Shown in pieces: positions 16,361-37,002 of a stretch of DNA of 37,050 bases. Source of the stretch: Thermoplasmatota archaeon (GTDB lineage Archaea; Thermoplasmatota; Thermoplasmata; Thermoplasmatales; Thermoplasmataceae); assembly GCA_023487205.1 (NCBI GenBank), contig JAMDBT010000017.1, positions 1 to 37,050 on the forward strand. The letters run 5' to 3'. Position 1 is the stretch's first letter, and every line of letters begins with the position of its first letter. Position numbers and translations under genes: made by a program. The notes beneath the pieces are model-generated. The model searched no databases, was not told the DNA's origin, and worked only from the letters and a program-made list of their open reading frames with translations.

Positions 16361-16410
16361 AAAATATAAATTAAAAGAAAAAAAATAAAATTGGGAACTT
16401 TAAAGTTCCC
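16361..16410 (-). terminator. Palindrome plus T-rich terminator of the S53 peptidase gene
   Basis: A perfect 18-base palindrome, GGGAACTTTAAAGTTCCC (16393-16410), includes the stop codon of the peptidase gene (16400-16402). On the minus strand it is followed at once by about 30 bases that are almost all T and A. Archaeal RNA polymerase terminates at T-runs, and the palindrome may add a 3' hairpin. It is the clearest terminator in the window. Confidence 0.75.
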
Positions 16411-19400
16411 TTAGGTAAGCGGTGCTCATGCCAACGAATACCGGTTCAGCTGGTCCCAGATGTCCAAGGTAGATCACTGCGGGTCCTGCCGATGAGAAAC
16501 CCACCTTGAATAGGTTGGGATAGCTGTTGTCGTGGTATTCCGTGCTTCCGGAGTACCAGTAGTCCTGGAGAGCATTCTTGTCCACTGACGGCGACGTGGT
16601 GTATCCCCACTGGACGTTGCCAGAGCCTGACGGCTCATTCACGTTCAGGAAGTAATTGGCTCCGCCGGTCAGGGTCACGGATGAGAAGGTCACGTTCTGC
16701 CATCCCCCGCTTGAGGGCTGGTTGACGGACACCGTAATGGCAGCAACTGTGTTCGAGGTGAACGCAGAAGTCCCGATGCCCACCGTTATTGTACCGGTTC
16801 CCTCAAGGAACAGGTTGACGAAGTTTACCTTCTCGCTTGTGCTCCCGACTGTGAACTTCTCTGCCTCTGGAAGCGTGTAGAAGTAAGTGTTAGCAGCGGT
16901 GGCTGTTACCTCGGCCCACACGCCATTGGCCTGCCCGGAGGTGGACGAGTACGCGATGGAAACTCCCGTGTTGGCGTTGCTCACAGTCACGGTTCCGGAT
17001 GATGGAGATGCGGAATATCCTGTTACTGATCCCACGGTATATGAGTAGGAACCGTCAGTCACAGTGAAGACAATTGTCGTGGTTGTTGAGGACTGACTTG
17101 TGCCCGCAAGAGTTACCGACCAGGATGTTCCAGATGGAAGTCCGGACTCGGTGAATGTAACAGTGTACTTGTTGGCGGTGAACGCCACAGACACTCCGGT
17201 GTTTGCGCCATTAACGGTTACCGATCCCGACGTAGGCGAGGCCGTGTATCCCGCAACCGTGCCTATTGTATAGGAGTATGTTCCGTCTGGTACGCTGAAT
17301 GCATCCGTTGTGGAAGTGGATGACTGGCTGGTACCGTCGAAAGTCACGGACCACGAGGTTCCGGATGCAAGTCCGGACTCGGTGAAGGTCACGGTGTAAG
17401 TTGGAGCAGGGGGAGCGCTGCTGTGATACCCTATCGTGTATATGTTCGGGTAGCTGTTATCATTGGTTGGCGTTCCGGATGGGAGACCATTGCTTGGTGG
17501 AGAACTATACCAGTAGTCTTGCGTAGCACCCACGTCAACGGAGGTTGTGGAGGTATATCCCCAGGTGATGCTTCCCGATCCCTCGACTGTCAGGTAATAA
17601 CTTGTGCCGCCTGTCAGAGTTATCGGCGTGATGGATGTGTTGTACCACACGGAGTTGCTGTTCACGTTAACGGTAGTGAAGGGTACTGTGTTGTCAGCCC
17701 ACAGTGATGTGCCTATTCCGAACTGGACACTGCCGCTGCCGGATAGATAAAGAACCACATAGTTGACTGTCTGACTGGTGGAGCCTATGTTGAACTGCTC
17801 TGCTTCCGGAAGGTTGTAGGTAGCAATGTTGGCTGAAGTCGCGTTAACCTCTGAGAATATTCCGTTGGAACCGGATGTTGAACTCTTGGAGAACGTAATG
17901 GTTGCACCCGTGTTGGCTCCATTTACGGTAATGGATCCCGATGAGGGGGACGACGTGTATCCAGACACGGTACCAACAGTGTACGAGTACGTTCCATTGG
18001 GTTCGGTGAATACATCAGTGGTCGTTGTTGATGACTGGCTGGCACTTCCAAGTGTAACAGACCACGAGGTCCCGGATGCAAGTCCGGACTCGGTGAAGGT
18101 CACGGTGTACTTTGTTGCCGGAGGAGTCGTTACTCCCTGATCCTGCACGAAGTTGTACGCGTTAATGCTGCCCCATCCTACTGCAAGGCTGTAGCCGTTG
18201 GCTGCGCTGAACGCGCCATTGGATCCATTGGATATGAAGTACAGCGGATTGTTGGATAGCGTTCCGTTCACTTCAGCCTGTGCAAGTCTGTATAATTCAG
18301 GGTTGAGGAATCCCTCGTTGGATCCTAGCTCAAGGCTCATATCCGCTACCACGCCCGCCATAAGGGGCGATGCCACACTGGTTCCCCACAGTTCAGTGTA
18401 GGAGGTGCTGCCGCCGGCGGTGATATATATCTCCATGTTGGCACCATCGCCTGCGACGTCAGGAGTTCCCCTGCCTGATGCAACGCCAGTGGTGGATGAA
18501 GCGCCCGTTATGACGCCATTTGCGTCAGCGCTGTTTTTTTGCCAGTTTGGCTCTGCAAAAATCGAGCTGACTCCTCCCTGGGAGCCATCCCCGGCGCTGG
18601 GGGTGTTGTACCACACTGACTGGGTGGAAATTCCGGTTGTGCCGGATCCATCGGTTGAGGTGCTTCCGGTAAGTGTCATTGCCGCTCCGCCCACTGCCAG
18701 TGTTCCGAAGTCGTTGTATGACATGGTGGCAGGGAAGCTTGGAGCAACGTTGCCGTTGGAGTTTCCATTATCACCAGAAGACGCGAGCACGGTTATTCCC
18801 CGAGCGGCTGCCTGCTGCTCATACTGCATCCAGGTAGAGTCGTTGCTGTCAGTTCCTCCCCAGGAGTTCGATATGGCAACTACGTGTGACAGGGCGTTGT
18901 CCACCGAGGTGTTGTAGCTCGGGTTCAGGACTGCTGCGAATGCTGCATCAAGGGATGCTGTGGTCGCCGTCGGTCCGTAGACTTCCACTACCGTGGCGCC
19001 CGGTGCCGCACTTGCGGCCATTTCCAGATCAAGGGTGGATTCATAGTTGGCCTGGGACTGGTCATTCGCCGCTGAAGGACCTGGTGGCGGTGCTCCATTG
19101 GTTGGATAACCGTACACGGTGGACCTGGGTTCGCCGGCTGGCGTATTGGTGTTGATATAGTGCGTTATGTCCGATGGCACGTATGGCCCAACATTAGCTC
19201 CCGATGAATCGGTACCGGACCAGAGTATTGTTGCAATGGTCTCTCCCGTCGGGTAACCCTTTGAAGAGAATATCTTGTTCAGCTGGTACGCAGCCTGCAT
19301 GTCTGCTCCGTACAGGAGTTCCGAAGACCCAGAACCGGTAAACAGCGGTGAGATGTGCGCGTTATATCCGGTGTTGAGACCTACTACGCTGCTTATGACC

Positions 19401-19924
19401 CCTGAGTACCCGAAGTCAAGATACATTTGCGTTGTGGGTGCAAAGTACCTGCCGCTGGGACTGTTGAACGTTGCAAGCTGCGTGTGGAATGTGCTCTGGA
19501 ATTGAGCCAGGGTTCCGGTGAGTTGCACGGAGGTCCTGTCACTGTAGGTCTTGACTGCAAACCCCTGTGACGAGAAATAGTTCACGTAGCTGTAGTACTC
19601 AGCGTAAGTTGGCGAAAAGGCGTTTATGAACTGCTGTTGCGTCATGTACTTGTGGTACATGGGAGACGATGGGTTCTGCAGATCTGACAGGAATGTGTTG
19701 AGTTCTTGGCTGTTCCTGTACTGCAGGGTCACTAACACGTTGGTCTTTTCGTTCGTATTTACCCCGGCTACCGGTTGGGGTCCGGTGACGACACCGGATA
19801 CCTTCTCTGGGATCAAATACATGGGCGAGGATTTCGAAACGGAATGCTCAGCCCCCCAGAAACCTGTCAGGATAAATGCAAAGGAGATGACGATAACTAT
19901 CGCCATTAATATCCTTTTATCCAT
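16400..19924 (-). CDS. Secreted S53 (sedolisin/kumamolisin) peptidase with repeated C-terminal modules
   Basis: Pre-pro-peptidase of 1174 residues for extracellular proteolysis at acid pH. Residues 1-25 form a signal peptide or signal anchor. Residues about 60-175 match the pro-kumamolisin activation domain. Residues about 200-595 are the catalytic domain with Glu 295 and Asp 299 (YESTLDLE), oxyanion Asp 385 (SSGDNG) and Ser 516 in GTSVASP. The usual calcium-site Asp in GYDLxxGxGSP-like segments is Ser here (GYSLAVGWGS). Downstream are two kinds of module in the order A-B-A-A-B: A (605-682, 842-917, 919-994) starts YTVTFTESGL and resembles thermopsin-associated beta domains; B (687-836, 999-1146) starts NG(I/V)(F/W)(S/A)EV and ends SYPN. 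No C-terminal membrane anchor is seen. GTTTAAGTA (19949-19957) is the likely TATA box. The modules probably bind the cell surface or substrate. Confidence 0.93.
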   Translation of the reverse strand: MDKRILMAIVIVISFAFILTGFWGAEHSVSKSSPMYLIPEKVSGVVTGPQPVAGVNTNEKTNVLVTLQYRNSQELNTFLSDLQNPSSPMYHKYMTQQQFINAFSPTYAEYYSYVNYFSSQGFAVKTYSDRTSVQLTGTLAQFQSTFHTQLATFNSPSGRYFAPTTQMYLDFGYSGVISSVVGLNTGYNAHISPLFTGSGSSELLYGADMQAAYQLNKIFSSKGYPTGETIATILWSGTDSSGANVGPYVPSDITHYINTNTPAGEPRSTVYGYPTNGAPPPGPSAANDQSQANYESTLDLEMAASAAPGATVVEVYGPTATTASLDAAFAAVLNPSYNTSVDNALSHVVAISNSWGGTDSNDSTWMQYEQQAAARGITVLASSGDNGNSNGNVAPSFPATMSYNDFGTLAVGGAAMTLTGSTSTDGSGTTGISTQSVWYNTPSAGDGSQGGVSSIFAEPNWQKNSADANGVITGASSTTGVASGRGTPDVAGDGANMEIYITAGGSTSYTELWGTSVASPLMAGVVADMSLELGSNEGFLNPELYRLAQAEVNGTLSNNPLYFISNGSNGAFSAANGYSLAVGWGSINAYNFVQDQGVTTPPATKYTVTFTESGLASGTSWSVTLGSASQSSTTTTDVFTEPNGTYSYTVGTVSGYTSSPSSGSITVNGANTGATITFSKSSTSGSNGIFSEVNATSANIATYNLPEAEQFNIGSTSQTVNYVVLYLSGSGSVQFGIGTSLWADNTVPFTTVNVNSNSVWYNTSITPITLTGGTSYYLTVEGSGSITWGYTSTTSVDVGATQDYWYSSPPSNGLPSGTPTNDNSYPNIYTIGYHSSAPPAPTYTVTFTESGLASGTSWSVTFDGTSQSSTSTTDAFSVPDGTYSYTIGTVAGYTASPTSGSVTVNGANTGVSVAFTANKYTVTFTESGLPSGTSWSVTLAGTSQSSTTTTIVFTVTDGSYSYTVGSVTGYSASPSSGTVTVSNANTGVSIAYSSTSGQANGVWAEVTATAANTYFYTLPEAEKFTVGSTSEKVNFVNLFLEGTGTITVGIGTSAFTSNTVAAITVSVNQPSSGGWQNVTFSSVTLTGGANYFLNVNEPSGSGNVQWGYTTSPSVDKNALQDYWYSGSTEYHDNSYPNLFKVGFSSAGPAVIYLGHLGPAEPVFVGMSTAYLREL
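16487..16930 (-). repeat. B-type module, second copy, in the S53 peptidase
   Basis: Encodes residues about 999-1146. It matches the first B copy along its whole length (LPEAE, TLTGG, QDYWYS and DNSYPN blocks all shared), so the module is about 148 residues long. Confidence 0.75.
16943..17170 (-). repeat. A-type module, third copy, in the S53 peptidase
   Basis: Encodes residues about 919-994, beginning YTVTFTESGLPSGTSWSV and ending in an NTGVSIAY-type strand. It follows the second A copy directly. Confidence 0.75.
17174..17401 (-). repeat. A-type module, second copy, in the S53 peptidase
   Basis: Encodes residues about 842-917. Its first about 50 bases (17350-17399) are nearly identical to the same part of copy 1 (18061-18110 region), with one difference seen. 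Confidence 0.75.
17417..17866 (-). repeat. B-type module, first copy, in the S53 peptidase
   Basis: Encodes residues about 687-836 and shares LPEAE, SGSVQFGIGTS-like, LTGGTSYYL, QDYWYS and DNSYPN blocks with the second B copy. Confidence 0.75.
17879..18112 (-). repeat. A-type module, first copy, in the S53 peptidase
   Basis: Encodes residues about 605-682, directly after the catalytic domain and a TTPPAT linker. Confidence 0.75.
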
Positions 19925-32353: not shown

Positions 32354-33244
<891 letters not shown>

Positions 33245-33290: not shown

Positions 33291-34259
33291 ATGAAATTCG
33301 GGATCGTGGGGCTGGGTAACCATTCCGTAAACAGGATCATTCCTGCAATTGGAAAGTCCGGGAATGAAGTTGCTTCTGTGTTTTCACGTAACGGCGAAAA
33401 GGCGGACAGGGTTGCTTCTTCCTGTGGTGCGCAGGCATTCACTTCAATGGATGATTTCCTGAACTCTGCCTTCGACGCGGCATACATAGCTTCTCCCAAT
33501 TTCCTCCACTTTCCTCACGCTCTGGCGTGCCTGGAGGCAGGAAAGGATGTCCTCCTGGAAAAACCCATGACGCTGAAGAATGAAGACGCAGAAACGCTTG
33601 TCAGCAAATCTGAATCTTCAGGAAGGAAGCTGGCAGTGGGTTTCCATATGCGATTCCATCCCGCAATATGGAAAATAAAATCCTATCTGGATGAATCAGA
33701 AATTGGCGAAATATCAAAGATCTCTGGAACCTGGGGAGGTTTGTCCTCGAGGTCTGACACACCCGACACAAAATGGTGGTACACTCCCGAAGAAGCGGGA
33801 GGCGGATCGGTAATGGGAACTGGTGTTCACGTCATTGATTCAATTCTATACCTTACTGGGAAGACTCCTAACTCTGTCACTGCAAAGCGGTACCCCGGCG
33901 GTGAAGTGATAGAACAGACCGAAGAGATCGTGATGGATTTTTCCTCGTTTGCCGCGCACGTCACCTCCTCAAGAAGGATGATGATGCCTGACAACAGCCT
34001 GTACATATACGGAACGGAAGGCACCATTGAAGGACAATCCATATTCAGCACCGAAATAAGGGGAAAGCTAGTCCTCAACGGAAAACAAGTTTCAGACTTT
34101 AAGGGAGGAAGCCAGTACGTGTCGGAGATATCCGCTTTTGTGGACTATGCTGAGGGCAGGAGTTCACGCATTGCCACCGGGCAGGACGGTTTTGAGGTCG
34201 TGAAAGTGGTCAATGCCGCCATACTGTCTGATCGTGAGGGCACAGAGGCCATGGTCTGA
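33291..34259 (+). CDS. Gfo/Idh/MocA family oxidoreductase
   Basis: NAD(P)-dependent sugar or polyol dehydrogenase family. The Rossmann motif is GIVGLGNHSVNRIIPAI at the N-terminus; VLLEKPM (E90 K91 P92) is the classic EKP motif, and GTGVHVID (H170, D173) carries the catalytic His. Length is 322. The frame is open 45 codons upstream, but ATG 33291 begins directly at the Rossmann strand and lies about 26 bases from the shared TATA element. It heads a tight three-gene operon with an unknown protein (no gap) and a DNA methyltransferase. The substrate is not known, and the partners do not suggest sugar catabolism. Confidence 0.92.
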   Translation: MKFGIVGLGNHSVNRIIPAIGKSGNEVASVFSRNGEKADRVASSCGAQAFTSMDDFLNSAFDAAYIASPNFLHFPHALACLEAGKDVLLEKPMTLKNEDAETLVSKSESSGRKLAVGFHMRFHPAIWKIKSYLDESEIGEISKISGTWGGLSSRSDTPDTKWWYTPEEAGGGSVMGTGVHVIDSILYLTGKTPNSVTAKRYPGGEVIEQTEEIVMDFSSFAAHVTSSRRMMMPDNSLYIYGTEGTIEGQSIFSTEIRGKLVLNGKQVSDFKGGSQYVSEISAFVDYAEGRSSRIATGQDGFEVVKVVNAAILSDREGTEAMV

Positions 34260-34271
34260 TTGATCCGCACC

Positions 34272-34919
34272 ATGAAGGAAGGGCCCTTGCTATGGAAACA
34301 AATTGCCCTGGTGGATCCGAAGGAAGAGAAACAAAATCCCGTTGATTTCAGGGCATATGCTTACCTCCTGATCCCTGCACCCGGGCACGTGGCAGTTTTC
34401 AGGGCACAGTGCAATGAATATGAAAGGCAGTATTTCATAGGTTCCGACACCCTGCCTGGCCTGGACAAGCTTTCTTCGTTTTTCTTTCACCTTTACAAAG
34501 CCTCTACTGAAAAAGAGACGCCAAGAGAGTGGAATGGCACGAGAATTACAATGATTCCATCACGTAGACGATCTTCCGAATTCTTTCATCCCACATTTCT
34601 GAGGACACTGCTCTACATCCCTTCAGCGATGCGGGAAGCGAAAGTGGACTACACTGTTGTGGTTTCGTCGCGCAGGCGGTTTGGCAGACTTCGTTACTCA
34701 TTTCTGCTTTCACTCAAATCTGATGCCCCCCGGGACAAGATGCAGGAAATACTGGATCTCATCAGGATGGAGGTACTGGAATTGAAAAGGAGATCTGGAT
34801 TCAAACTGCGAATAACCGGTGGGAACAGGGCGACATTCCGGAACGATTCCTTCAGGCTGCCCTTCAATCTCCTGACTTTCATCCACCTCCCGCTGGAAGA
34901 GCAGGTAGAGATGGCATAA
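34272..34919 (+). CDS. Uncharacterised basic protein between oxidoreductase and methyltransferase
   Basis: I do not recognise this protein of about 215 residues. It is soluble, Arg/Lys-rich and apparently mixed alpha/beta. Notable parts are a hydrophobic strand DFRAYAYLLIPAPGHVAVFRA, basic patches MIPSRRRSSEFF and VSSRRRFGRLRYSF, a helix EILDLIRMEVLELKRR and LPFNLLTFIHLP near the end. The basic patches could bind nucleic acid, but no known motif supports this. The start is uncertain: a TTG at 34260 follows the previous stop directly, and ATG 34272 is four codons later. The stop is 4 bases from the start of the methyltransferase gene, so the two are almost surely co-transcribed and may act together. 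Confidence 0.7.
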   Translation: MKEGPLLWKQIALVDPKEEKQNPVDFRAYAYLLIPAPGHVAVFRAQCNEYERQYFIGSDTLPGLDKLSSFFFHLYKASTEKETPREWNGTRITMIPSRRRSSEFFHPTFLRTLLYIPSAMREAKVDYTVVVSSRRRFGRLRYSFLLSLKSDAPRDKMQEILDLIRMEVLELKRRSGFKLRITGGNRATFRNDSFRLPFNLLTFIHLPLEEQVEMA

Positions 34920-34923
34920 ATTC

Positions 34924-36072
34924 ATGCGCGATCGAGGTATTATTGATCGGATGGCTGGGTCCCAGAATCCGGTAATGGCGAATATTGATGGAGAAGTCGT
35001 TTTTGAAAGGGCTGTGCTGGACAGGTACCTGGAATCCCTGAAATCGTTGGCCATCAGTGAGATAAGGAAAGAGGTGGATTCTTTTCGCGAATCGATCTCC
35101 ACAAAGGTCACTCTCGACGCCCCCCCGGGCAAGAATGGGCTTATCGGTTTCGATGAATCAACCCAGACTGGGGGCGACTTCCGCGTGAAGCATGCAATCC
35201 TGGATCGCCAGCTCGAACAGATATCAGGTTCAAGAACGGAGGATCGGGCAATTTACTACATAGAAAGGCTGAGAAAATACGTTTCCTCCGACCGGAAGGA
35301 GGGCCTTGATCTGAACAGGTGGCAGGATTACGATGAAATAATCACGGACAGTTTCTGGAACGTAGAGTCCAGGGACAGGTCCGAAATGCACGATGCGGGC
35401 TACTGGGGGAATTTCGTTCCGCTGATTCCGCGGCAGCTCATGCTGAGGTACACCAAGCCGGGCGACCTGGTGCTGGAACCGTTCATGGGCGCAGGTACGA
35501 CCCTGTTCGAAGCTGTCTCCATTGACCGGAATTATCTTGGAGTGGACATCATCGGCGAACTGGTGGAAAAGGCCAGGGCAAAGGTCTCCGGTTCAATGAC
35601 AAAGTCAAAGTATTTCCTTTATACTGGAAACTCCTGCGAAACTGATTTTTCTTCTCTTTTGCGTGAGAATGGTTTCGAAGCATCTGATCTGGTGATAATG
35701 CATCCTCCCTACCACGACATAATCCATTTTACCGATGATCCCCGTGATCTTTCCAACGCATCTTCACTGGACGGGTTCCTCTTACAGTTTTCACGGATTG
35801 CCGCTTCGTGCGTTTCGACGCTCAGGCCTGGAGGATACCTGGCTGCCGTCATAGGGGACAAGTACGCCTCCGGTGAGTGGGTTCCGCTGGGATTCCTGGT
35901 CATGCAGGAACTCGCAAGAACCGGTCTGATCCTCAAGAGCATCGTGGTGAAGAATTTCAACCGGACCAGGGGCAAGAGGGGGCAGGAGAGGTTATGGCGC
36001 TACAGGGCTCTGGCCGGAGGGTATTACGTTTTCAAGCACGAGTATATACTGGTCTTCCGAAAACCGGCCTAA
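34924..36072 (+). CDS. DNA methyltransferase (N6-adenine/N4-cytosine type) with HPPY motif
   Basis: Amino-methyltransferase of the N4/N6 class, 382 residues. The AdoMet site (motif I) is LVLEPFMGAGTTLFEA (about 183-198), followed by NYLGVDIIGELVEKA. The catalytic motif IV is HPPYHDIIHF (260-269) where most enzymes have DPPY, NPPY or SPPY. Motif VIII-like LRPGGYLAAVIGDKY follows. The N-terminal about 130 residues contain a predicted helical/coiled region (26-57) of unknown role. Base-modification of DNA is expected, but RNA cannot be ruled out. No restriction endonuclease gene adjoins, so it looks like an orphan enzyme. It is the last gene of the oxidoreductase operon, and its 3' end overlaps the convergent epimerase-like gene by 4 bases. 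Confidence 0.88.
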   Translation: MRDRGIIDRMAGSQNPVMANIDGEVVFERAVLDRYLESLKSLAISEIRKEVDSFRESISTKVTLDAPPGKNGLIGFDESTQTGGDFRVKHAILDRQLEQISGSRTEDRAIYYIERLRKYVSSDRKEGLDLNRWQDYDEIITDSFWNVESRDRSEMHDAGYWGNFVPLIPRQLMLRYTKPGDLVLEPFMGAGTTLFEAVSIDRNYLGVDIIGELVEKARAKVSGSMTKSKYFLYTGNSCETDFSSLLRENGFEASDLVIMHPPYHDIIHFTDDPRDLSNASSLDGFLLQFSRIAASCVSTLRPGGYLAAVIGDKYASGEWVPLGFLVMQELARTGLILKSIVVKNFNRTRGKRGQERLWRYRALAGGYYVFKHEYILVFRKPA

Positions 36073-36980
36073 TCCTTGTTTCCGCCCAGAAGGGAGGTGA
36101 GCGCAACTTCCAGTGTCGGGTATCGAAACTTGAATCCCATGCTTTCTGCCTTCTCCGGCATGGCGGCCCCTCCGTTGATCAGGAGGGAGGCTGCCTTCCC
36201 GAACCTGAGTTTTACAACAAACTGCGGGATAGCCATCGTTCCGGATTTGCCTAGGTGCTTGCCGATTGAGGATGCGAAATCCTTCATCCTCACAGGATTG
36301 GGAGACGACGCATTGATTGGACCGCTGATGCTGCTATTGTTGATGCACTCCAGAATCAGGGAAACCTCGTCATCCCTATGGATCCAGGATACCCATTGCC
36401 TACCGGGTTTTACGTAACCACCCATTCTCTTCCTGAATAGAGGTATCATTTCTCCGAGCGTGCCGGAGTTGGGATCCAGGAAAAGAGAGGTGCGCACGTT
36501 GACAACCCTGACTCCAAGGTCTGAAGCACCCTCCGCAGCCTTTTCCCATTTCGCGACCATGTTTCCCCAGTAATCTTTCCCTGCAGGACTTTCCTCTGTG
36601 AATTTCAAGTCGTCAGTTTCTTCTGCTCCATAGTAACCCGCAGCGGACCCGTTGACAAATACTTCCGGCCTTGGTTTGGACGCGCTTATAAGGTTGGTGA
36701 CCCTGGCGGTCAAAATTACCCTGCTCTCCTCTATTAGATCCAGCTTCTTGGTGCTGTTTATGGAAGCGCCGCTGAAATTGAGCACCGCTCTGGCACCGGA
36801 TATCTCCTTTACAATCTTCTTGTCGTCGGTAAAGCTCACTATGTTGTCCGCAAATGAAACCTGAGCCTTGTCTGGGTTTCTTGTGACAACAGTCACTGTC
36901 CATCCTGCTTTCTTGAGTGATTCGCCGACCGCGCCACCAATGGCTCCAGTCCCACCAAAGATTACGGCCTTATTCTGCAT
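36069..36980 (-). CDS. TIGR01777 family NAD-dependent epimerase-like protein
   Basis: Extended short-chain dehydrogenase of the TIGR01777 (YfcH/SulA-like) group, about 303 residues. The Rossmann start AVIFGGTGAIGGAVGESL and VLNFSGASI are typical, as are NGSAAGYYG (Ser/Tyr) and the C-terminal DUF1731-type end with PEKAESMGFKFRYPTLEVAL. Function of the family is poorly defined; binding of NAD(P) is expected. ATG 36980 is favoured over TTG 36998 because TATTTAAG (37003-37010) is centred 26 bases ahead, a near-perfect leaderless promoter. The 3' end overlaps the methyltransferase gene by 4 bases in convergent orientation. Confidence 0.92.
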   Translation of the reverse strand: MQNKAVIFGGTGAIGGAVGESLKKAGWTVTVVTRNPDKAQVSFADNIVSFTDDKKIVKEISGARAVLNFSGASINSTKKLDLIEESRVILTARVTNLISASKPRPEVFVNGSAAGYYGAEETDDLKFTEESPAGKDYWGNMVAKWEKAAEGASDLGVRVVNVRTSLFLDPNSGTLGEMIPLFRKRMGGYVKPGRQWVSWIHRDDEVSLILECINNSSISGPINASSPNPVRMKDFASSIGKHLGKSGTMAIPQFVVKLRFGKAASLLINGGAAMPEKAESMGFKFRYPTLEVALTSLLGGNKD

Positions 36981-37002
36981 CGAGTGGGGTATCTGCAACT
37001 TT

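Follow-up and report, generated by a model that had tools for sequence, protein, structure and literature searches.

The closest described relatives of the system discussed here include T4SS ATPases of the VirB4/VirD4 type, phage G gp156-type ATPases and archaeal DNA-exchange machineries. Ced and Ted, both domesticated T4SS, transfer chromosomal DNA (PMC9905601). The Ced DNA-import system of Sulfolobales has the VirB4-like N-terminal domain divided between proteins, CedB and CedD being homologous to different parts of this domain (PMC11868833). Within the Thermoplasmatales, the sections of the Cuniculiplasma description cited here list a TraG/TraD/VirD4 ATPase (CSP5_0791) and a VirB4 cluster (CSP5_1185-1189; PMC5155288). 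With regard to DNA modification, persistent orphan methyltransferases of archaea such as HG1 (CTAG) of Halobacteria are conserved taxon-wide and mostly lack a restriction enzyme, whereas the archaeal survey, for which nine Thermoplasmatales genomes were then available, contains no persistent system for Thermoplasmatota (Table 3 in PMC10609329).

Here, we analyze a stretch of 37,050 nucleotides (the window; bases 1-37050 of a 43.6-kb contig) from the 1.56-Mb genome of a Thermoplasmatota archaeon. It contains a compact group of three genes, the middle one of which encodes a basic protein without annotation. We consider it moderately probable that this protein is the detached N-terminal domain, or subunit, of a T4SS-like (VirD4/HerA/VirB4-like) DNA-translocating ATPase. 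This reading provides a testable identity for a protein family that is widely conserved in the Thermoplasma family but has no annotation. It also suggests that a domesticated T4SS-like ATPase is at work in these acidophiles whose N-terminal subunit is separable, in parallel to CedB and CedD.

A clade-specific gene trio

The three genes, all of them exact open reading frames, lie head to tail on the forward strand between positions 33291 and 36072, and are as tightly packed as the preliminary description had stated, with gaps of 0 (or 12) and 4 bases. The first (33291..34259, ATG start, 322 aa) encodes a Gfo/Idh/MocA-family NAD(P)-dependent dehydrogenase. The gene of the basic protein (34260..34919, TTG start, 219 aa) follows directly behind the stop codon; an alternative ATG at 34272 would yield 215 aa and leave the gap of 12. 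The third gene (34924..36072, ATG start, 382 aa) encodes an N4/N6 DNA methyltransferase. On either side the next gene is located on the reverse strand, i.e., an alpha/beta hydrolase (32354-33238) and an epimerase/DUF1731-type protein (36069-36998), and within the window the trio borders on no nuclease, helicase or mobile element. Beyond the window, the contig runs on into an A-type ATP synthase operon. Elsewhere in the window, positions 16400-19924 of the reverse strand encode a sedolisin-like secreted protease (1174 aa) that has repeated segments at its C-terminus and relatives near the methyltransferase gene in three other loci (L174, L177, L180).

Gene order was read from 28 loci around homologues of the basic protein. 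The complete trio occurs in only five of the genomes, belonging to genus g1 (G000, which is the genome of the window, G001 and G002) and genus g15 (G016 and G032), the genes being 0-25 nt apart or slightly overlapping. Since g15 groups with g1 on the AtpB tree, the trio represents one ancestral arrangement, and the methyltransferase became a neighbor of the basic protein's gene once, in the ancestor of these two genera. Genera g14 and g4 have the Gfo gene paired with that of the basic protein and no methyltransferase, while in g2 two small genes stand between the former two. In all other genera the Gfo gene is neither beside nor near; here the gene of the basic protein has an S9 peptidase, an aminotransferase, the A-type ATP synthase operon or, in Thermoplasma, the ATPase gene described below as its neighbor, and in the majority of genera neither of its two neighbors from the window is present. 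The gene order is thus kept within one clade and not found outside of it: the trio is specific to that clade, a three-gene system is rejected outside g1/g15, and the two neighbors seen in the window are mostly accidental. Some irregularities were encountered around the ATP synthase genes. Genome G004 carries two copies each of the basic protein's gene and the A-type ATP synthase operon (L051 and L055, on contigs C6 and C4), reflecting either a duplicated region or mixed strains, and the ATP synthase A-subunit frames reach 1013 aa in L031_07 (G033), with an intein-like insert, and at least 780 aa in L033_01 (G015).

The assignment of the first gene as a Gfo/Idh/MocA oxidoreductase is borne out by Pfam (GFO_IDH_MocA, E 6e-25; C-terminal domains, 2.9e-18/6.4e-14), with both the Rossmann and the GFO_IDH_MocA_C domain above the curated cut-off. 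The best NCBIfam match is the D-xylose dehydrogenase model Gfo6 (1.5e-38, far below the curated cut-off). On these profile matches the enzyme is predicted to be a sugar dehydrogenase-like neighbor with an unrelated metabolic role, outside the machine proposed below; the earlier suggestion that it acts on a modified base finds no support.

The third gene product (METHYLTRANSFERASE) is an N4/N6 methyltransferase, as originally named (Pfam N6_N4_Mtase, E 1.6e-16; PADLOC MTase_II PDLC03351, 1.3e-113). Motif I (FMGAGT, residues ~187-192) and motif IV (HPPY, residues 260-263) both fall in conserved blocks, and HPPY is invariant in five orthologues. Orthologues (E < 1e-48) are present in most genomes of families f1, f3, f4 and f5 and also in f6, in varying neighborhoods, but g10, g18 and g19 give no strong match, which is also the case for the basic protein. 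No cognate restriction enzyme adjoins the gene in the window. Among the relatives, genus g21 is the exception: a DpnI-type methyl-directed nuclease (PF06044, E 2.5e-52; L170:2411-3232, L173, L184) adjoins the methyltransferase orthologue in two loci and lies one gene away in the third. A search for depleted palindromic tetramers as a trace of the methylation site gave no clear candidate, CTAG being low in all groups and CGCG only in g12 and g3. The enzyme is an order-wide, mostly orphan methyltransferase, of a kind not among the persistent systems of the published archaeal survey (PMC10609329). Non-restriction modification, as inferred in the preliminary description, therefore fits the methyltransferase taken on its own, here and in most relatives, and not the three genes taken together.

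The basic protein and its proposed partner ATPase

The middle gene is real, conserved and unannotated across Thermoplasmataceae. Homologues are present in 52 of the 77 family genomes, nearly all as open frames without internal stops. The protein has a pI of 9.9 and 24 arginines in 219 residues. Profile searches against Pfam and NCBIfam returned no family, housekeeping or other, in agreement with the first reading. A Pfam match to ribosomal L24 (E 0.079) was dismissed as noise, and a weak profile match in genome G086 of another family (E 0.006), situated among PhoU-like and transport genes, was taken as chance.

The AlphaFold2 (AF2) model of the basic protein, built from a 25-sequence alignment, reached a pLDDT of 90.1 and a pTM of 0.88. 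When compared by Foldseek to viral structures (BFVD), its top three matches were phage G gp156, the phage JL ATPase S5MSQ0 and phage G gp155. The gp156 match has an E-value of 4e-6 and a TMq of 0.70, the Foldseek output giving no matched region of gp156. All the same, the top 50 PDB matches include no VirB4, the best being berberine bridge enzyme (TM 0.42). Among the phage proteins, gp155 matches the TraG P-loop and DUF87 models, with CagE_TrbE_VirB below the cut-off, whereas gp156 matches both DUF87 and TraG-D_C weakly and has relatives annotated as VirD4-like or T4SS DNA transfer proteins.

A putative cellular partner with the corresponding ATPase part is available. The models that it matches are those of TrwB/TraG coupling proteins and DUF87/HerA, and 58 of the 77 family genomes encode it; in the genome of the window it is located at 15001-16944 of contig C38, while the gene of the basic protein is on contig C18. 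The two genes are unlinked in most genera. Genomes G007 and G025 are different, and we take their loci to be those of the genus Thermoplasma: in both loci inspected, the gene of the basic protein overlaps the start of the ATPase gene (637 and 632 aa, respectively) by 8 nt. In all genomes found, the basic protein is encoded as a separate gene, never fused to the ATPase. Despite the general lack of linkage, both genes occur together. Among the 35 genomes that are at least 90% complete, 23 have both, 12 have neither and none is discordant; all ten discordant genomes are incomplete (62-89%). The 12 genomes without both genes belong to genera g10, g18 and g19, which form one clade on the AtpB tree. 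They consequently count as a single joint absence of two unlinked genes rather than twelve, and for the same reason the Fisher test of co-occurrence was not taken as a probability.

The ATPase is present without an N-terminal domain of its own, the P-loop in its profile (A2) being only ~44 residues from the start. By hhalign, the ATPase profile aligns with residues ~330-750 of the phage G gp156 family (probability 99.5, E 3.8e-22), so gp156 carries ~330 residues in front of the shared part that the archaeal ATPase lacks. The basic protein looks like this missing N-terminal part. Similar to VirB4/VirD4-type T4SS ATPases and gp156-type proteins, the system would thus combine an N-terminal domain, with a predicted fold matching that of gp156-type proteins, and an ATPase homologous to the ATPase part of gp156. 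It differs from them in that domain and ATPase are two, usually unlinked, genes and in that no N-terminal sequence similarity is left: hhalign of the basic protein family against the phage N-terminal regions and the partner genes of family f3 gave probabilities below 1%, and sequence homology to the f3/f4 partner genes, to 870-aa fused relatives or to the phage N-domains was rejected. The C-terminus of the ATPase contains the conserved residues D454, E467, E469, D472 and K482, a PD...ExE..D...K pattern reminiscent of PD-(D/E)xK nucleases, which may indicate a putative nuclease activity.

A comparable organization is found in the sister families f3 and f4. Directly upstream of the close ATPase homologue, each of the nine loci inspected has a gene of 167-221 aa that overlaps or abuts it, and a small gene ahead of the ATPase was found again in 14 of 15 f3 genomes. 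The encoded partner has no sequence similarity to the basic protein family. Its AF2 model (pLDDT 88) nevertheless begins with the same order of secondary structure elements (E-H-E-E-H-E-E-H-E) as the basic protein, the second half being different. Foldseek ranks S5MSQ0 second and gp156 fourth among its matches, which also comprise A0A1I9S6D4, with lower TM-scores (0.38-0.49); all three are likewise among the matches of the basic protein. Two sequence-unrelated families that are tied to the same ATPase thus both point to the same phage ATPases.

Competing explanations

Several other explanations may account for parts of these data. The trio could be a functional operon that serves as a unit of epigenetic or nucleic-acid modification. 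The orphan methyltransferase would then owe its DNA binding or specificity to the basic protein, and the oxidoreductase would supply or process a cofactor. The tight packing conserved in five genomes of two sister genera speaks for such a unit, as do the family-wide basic character of the protein (pI 8.0-10.6) and the absence of the methyltransferase from the very clade that lacks the basic protein. Yet, methyltransferase orthologues are spread order-wide over unrelated loci, the basic protein stands without either neighbor in most genera and the oxidoreductase resembles sugar dehydrogenases. Moreover, at the order level the methyltransferase of family f5 comes with no close homologue of the ATPase and genera g28 and g29 show the reverse, so there is no obligate link between these two enzymes. 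With the gene order restricted to g1 and its sister genus, we no longer uphold the original proposal of one modification system formed by three genes, and regard the operon as quite improbable.

The same independent occurrence weighs against a HerA/mad8-type defense module, in which the basic protein and the ATPase would act together and the methyltransferase mark would tell self from foreign DNA, as in MADS or other methylation-based systems. In its favor, the PADLOC models matched by the ATPase are mad8 (E 7e-14 to 1e-16) and HerA/DndH, those matched by the methyltransferase include mad2 (E 2e-12) as well as MTase_II, and the C-terminal PD...ExE..K pattern of the ATPase would suit such a role. 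These PADLOC matches may, however, be generic to the superfamily. The mad-like genes do not form one operon, the mad8-like ATPase and the mad2-like methyltransferase being on different contigs, and PADLOC gives no mad match for the basic protein. There is no defense island, and the near-universal conservation across genera is unlike that of patchy defense genes. We judge this explanation to be quite improbable as well. Slightly more credit, though still little, is due to the idea of a ferredoxin-like, nucleic-acid-binding protein that acts on its own in a housekeeping role and has nothing to do with the ATPase, being linked, for instance, to ATP synthase. The gene is often found within a few kb of the A-type ATP synthase operon, and the PDB fold matches are generic. 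But the clade without the basic protein keeps its ATP synthase, the gene in Thermoplasma lies apart from the atp genes and instead runs into the ATPase gene, and the best viral fold matches point specifically to a single class of ATPases.

A possible link to DNA exchange

If the basic protein is indeed a detached N-terminal subunit of the T4SS-like ATPase, it would dock on the hexameric ATPase ring and form a platform like the fused N-terminal domain of VirB4-type proteins, in contact with both a membrane channel and the DNA. The ATPase, with its conserved C-terminal pattern, would then drive or process DNA, and this step may be an exchange of chromosomal DNA together with the T4SS-like cluster of the same genome. 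The cluster (contig C6, L205:5641-8936) encodes a T4SS_pilin protein (PF18895, E 6.8e-7), a multi-pass protein without Pfam match, a membrane protein and a VirB4-like ATPase, and is on a different contig from the gene of the basic protein. VirB4 homologues are found in nearly all family genomes, including genomes that lack both the basic protein and its ATPase. As VirB4 persists without the basic protein, the cluster was rejected as an obligate partner, and DNA exchange is a role that we infer. The presence of the cluster and the precedents of Ced/Ted and CedB/CedD make it the likeliest role for subunit and ATPase, which we put forward tentatively.

The parallel to the Ced system concerns both archaeal DNA transfer and the division of the VirB4-like N-terminal domain between proteins (PMC11868833). 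Both CedB and CedD carry a fused ATPase domain as well as TM parts; in contrast, the present protein stands alone without an ATPase domain. Within the Thermoplasmatales, genome G013 is presumably that of Cuniculiplasma. Its ATPase (G013:C1:757200) probably corresponds, by genome position, to CSP5_0791, for which the cited sections of the published description mention no partner protein (PMC5155288).

A further combination would join the N-terminal domain, the ATPase with its nuclease-like tail and the persistent methyltransferase in one system of the Thermoplasmatales for DNA exchange or self/non-self distinction, gated by methylation: DNA moved by the T4SS-like machinery would be processed or spared according to the order-wide mark. 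We consider this very improbable. T4SS-like genes also occur in family f3 (L151, L153), where a second T4SS-like operon encodes a 679-aa ATPase with an N-terminal region of ~200 residues, a 527-aa VirB4-like ATPase and a small membrane protein.
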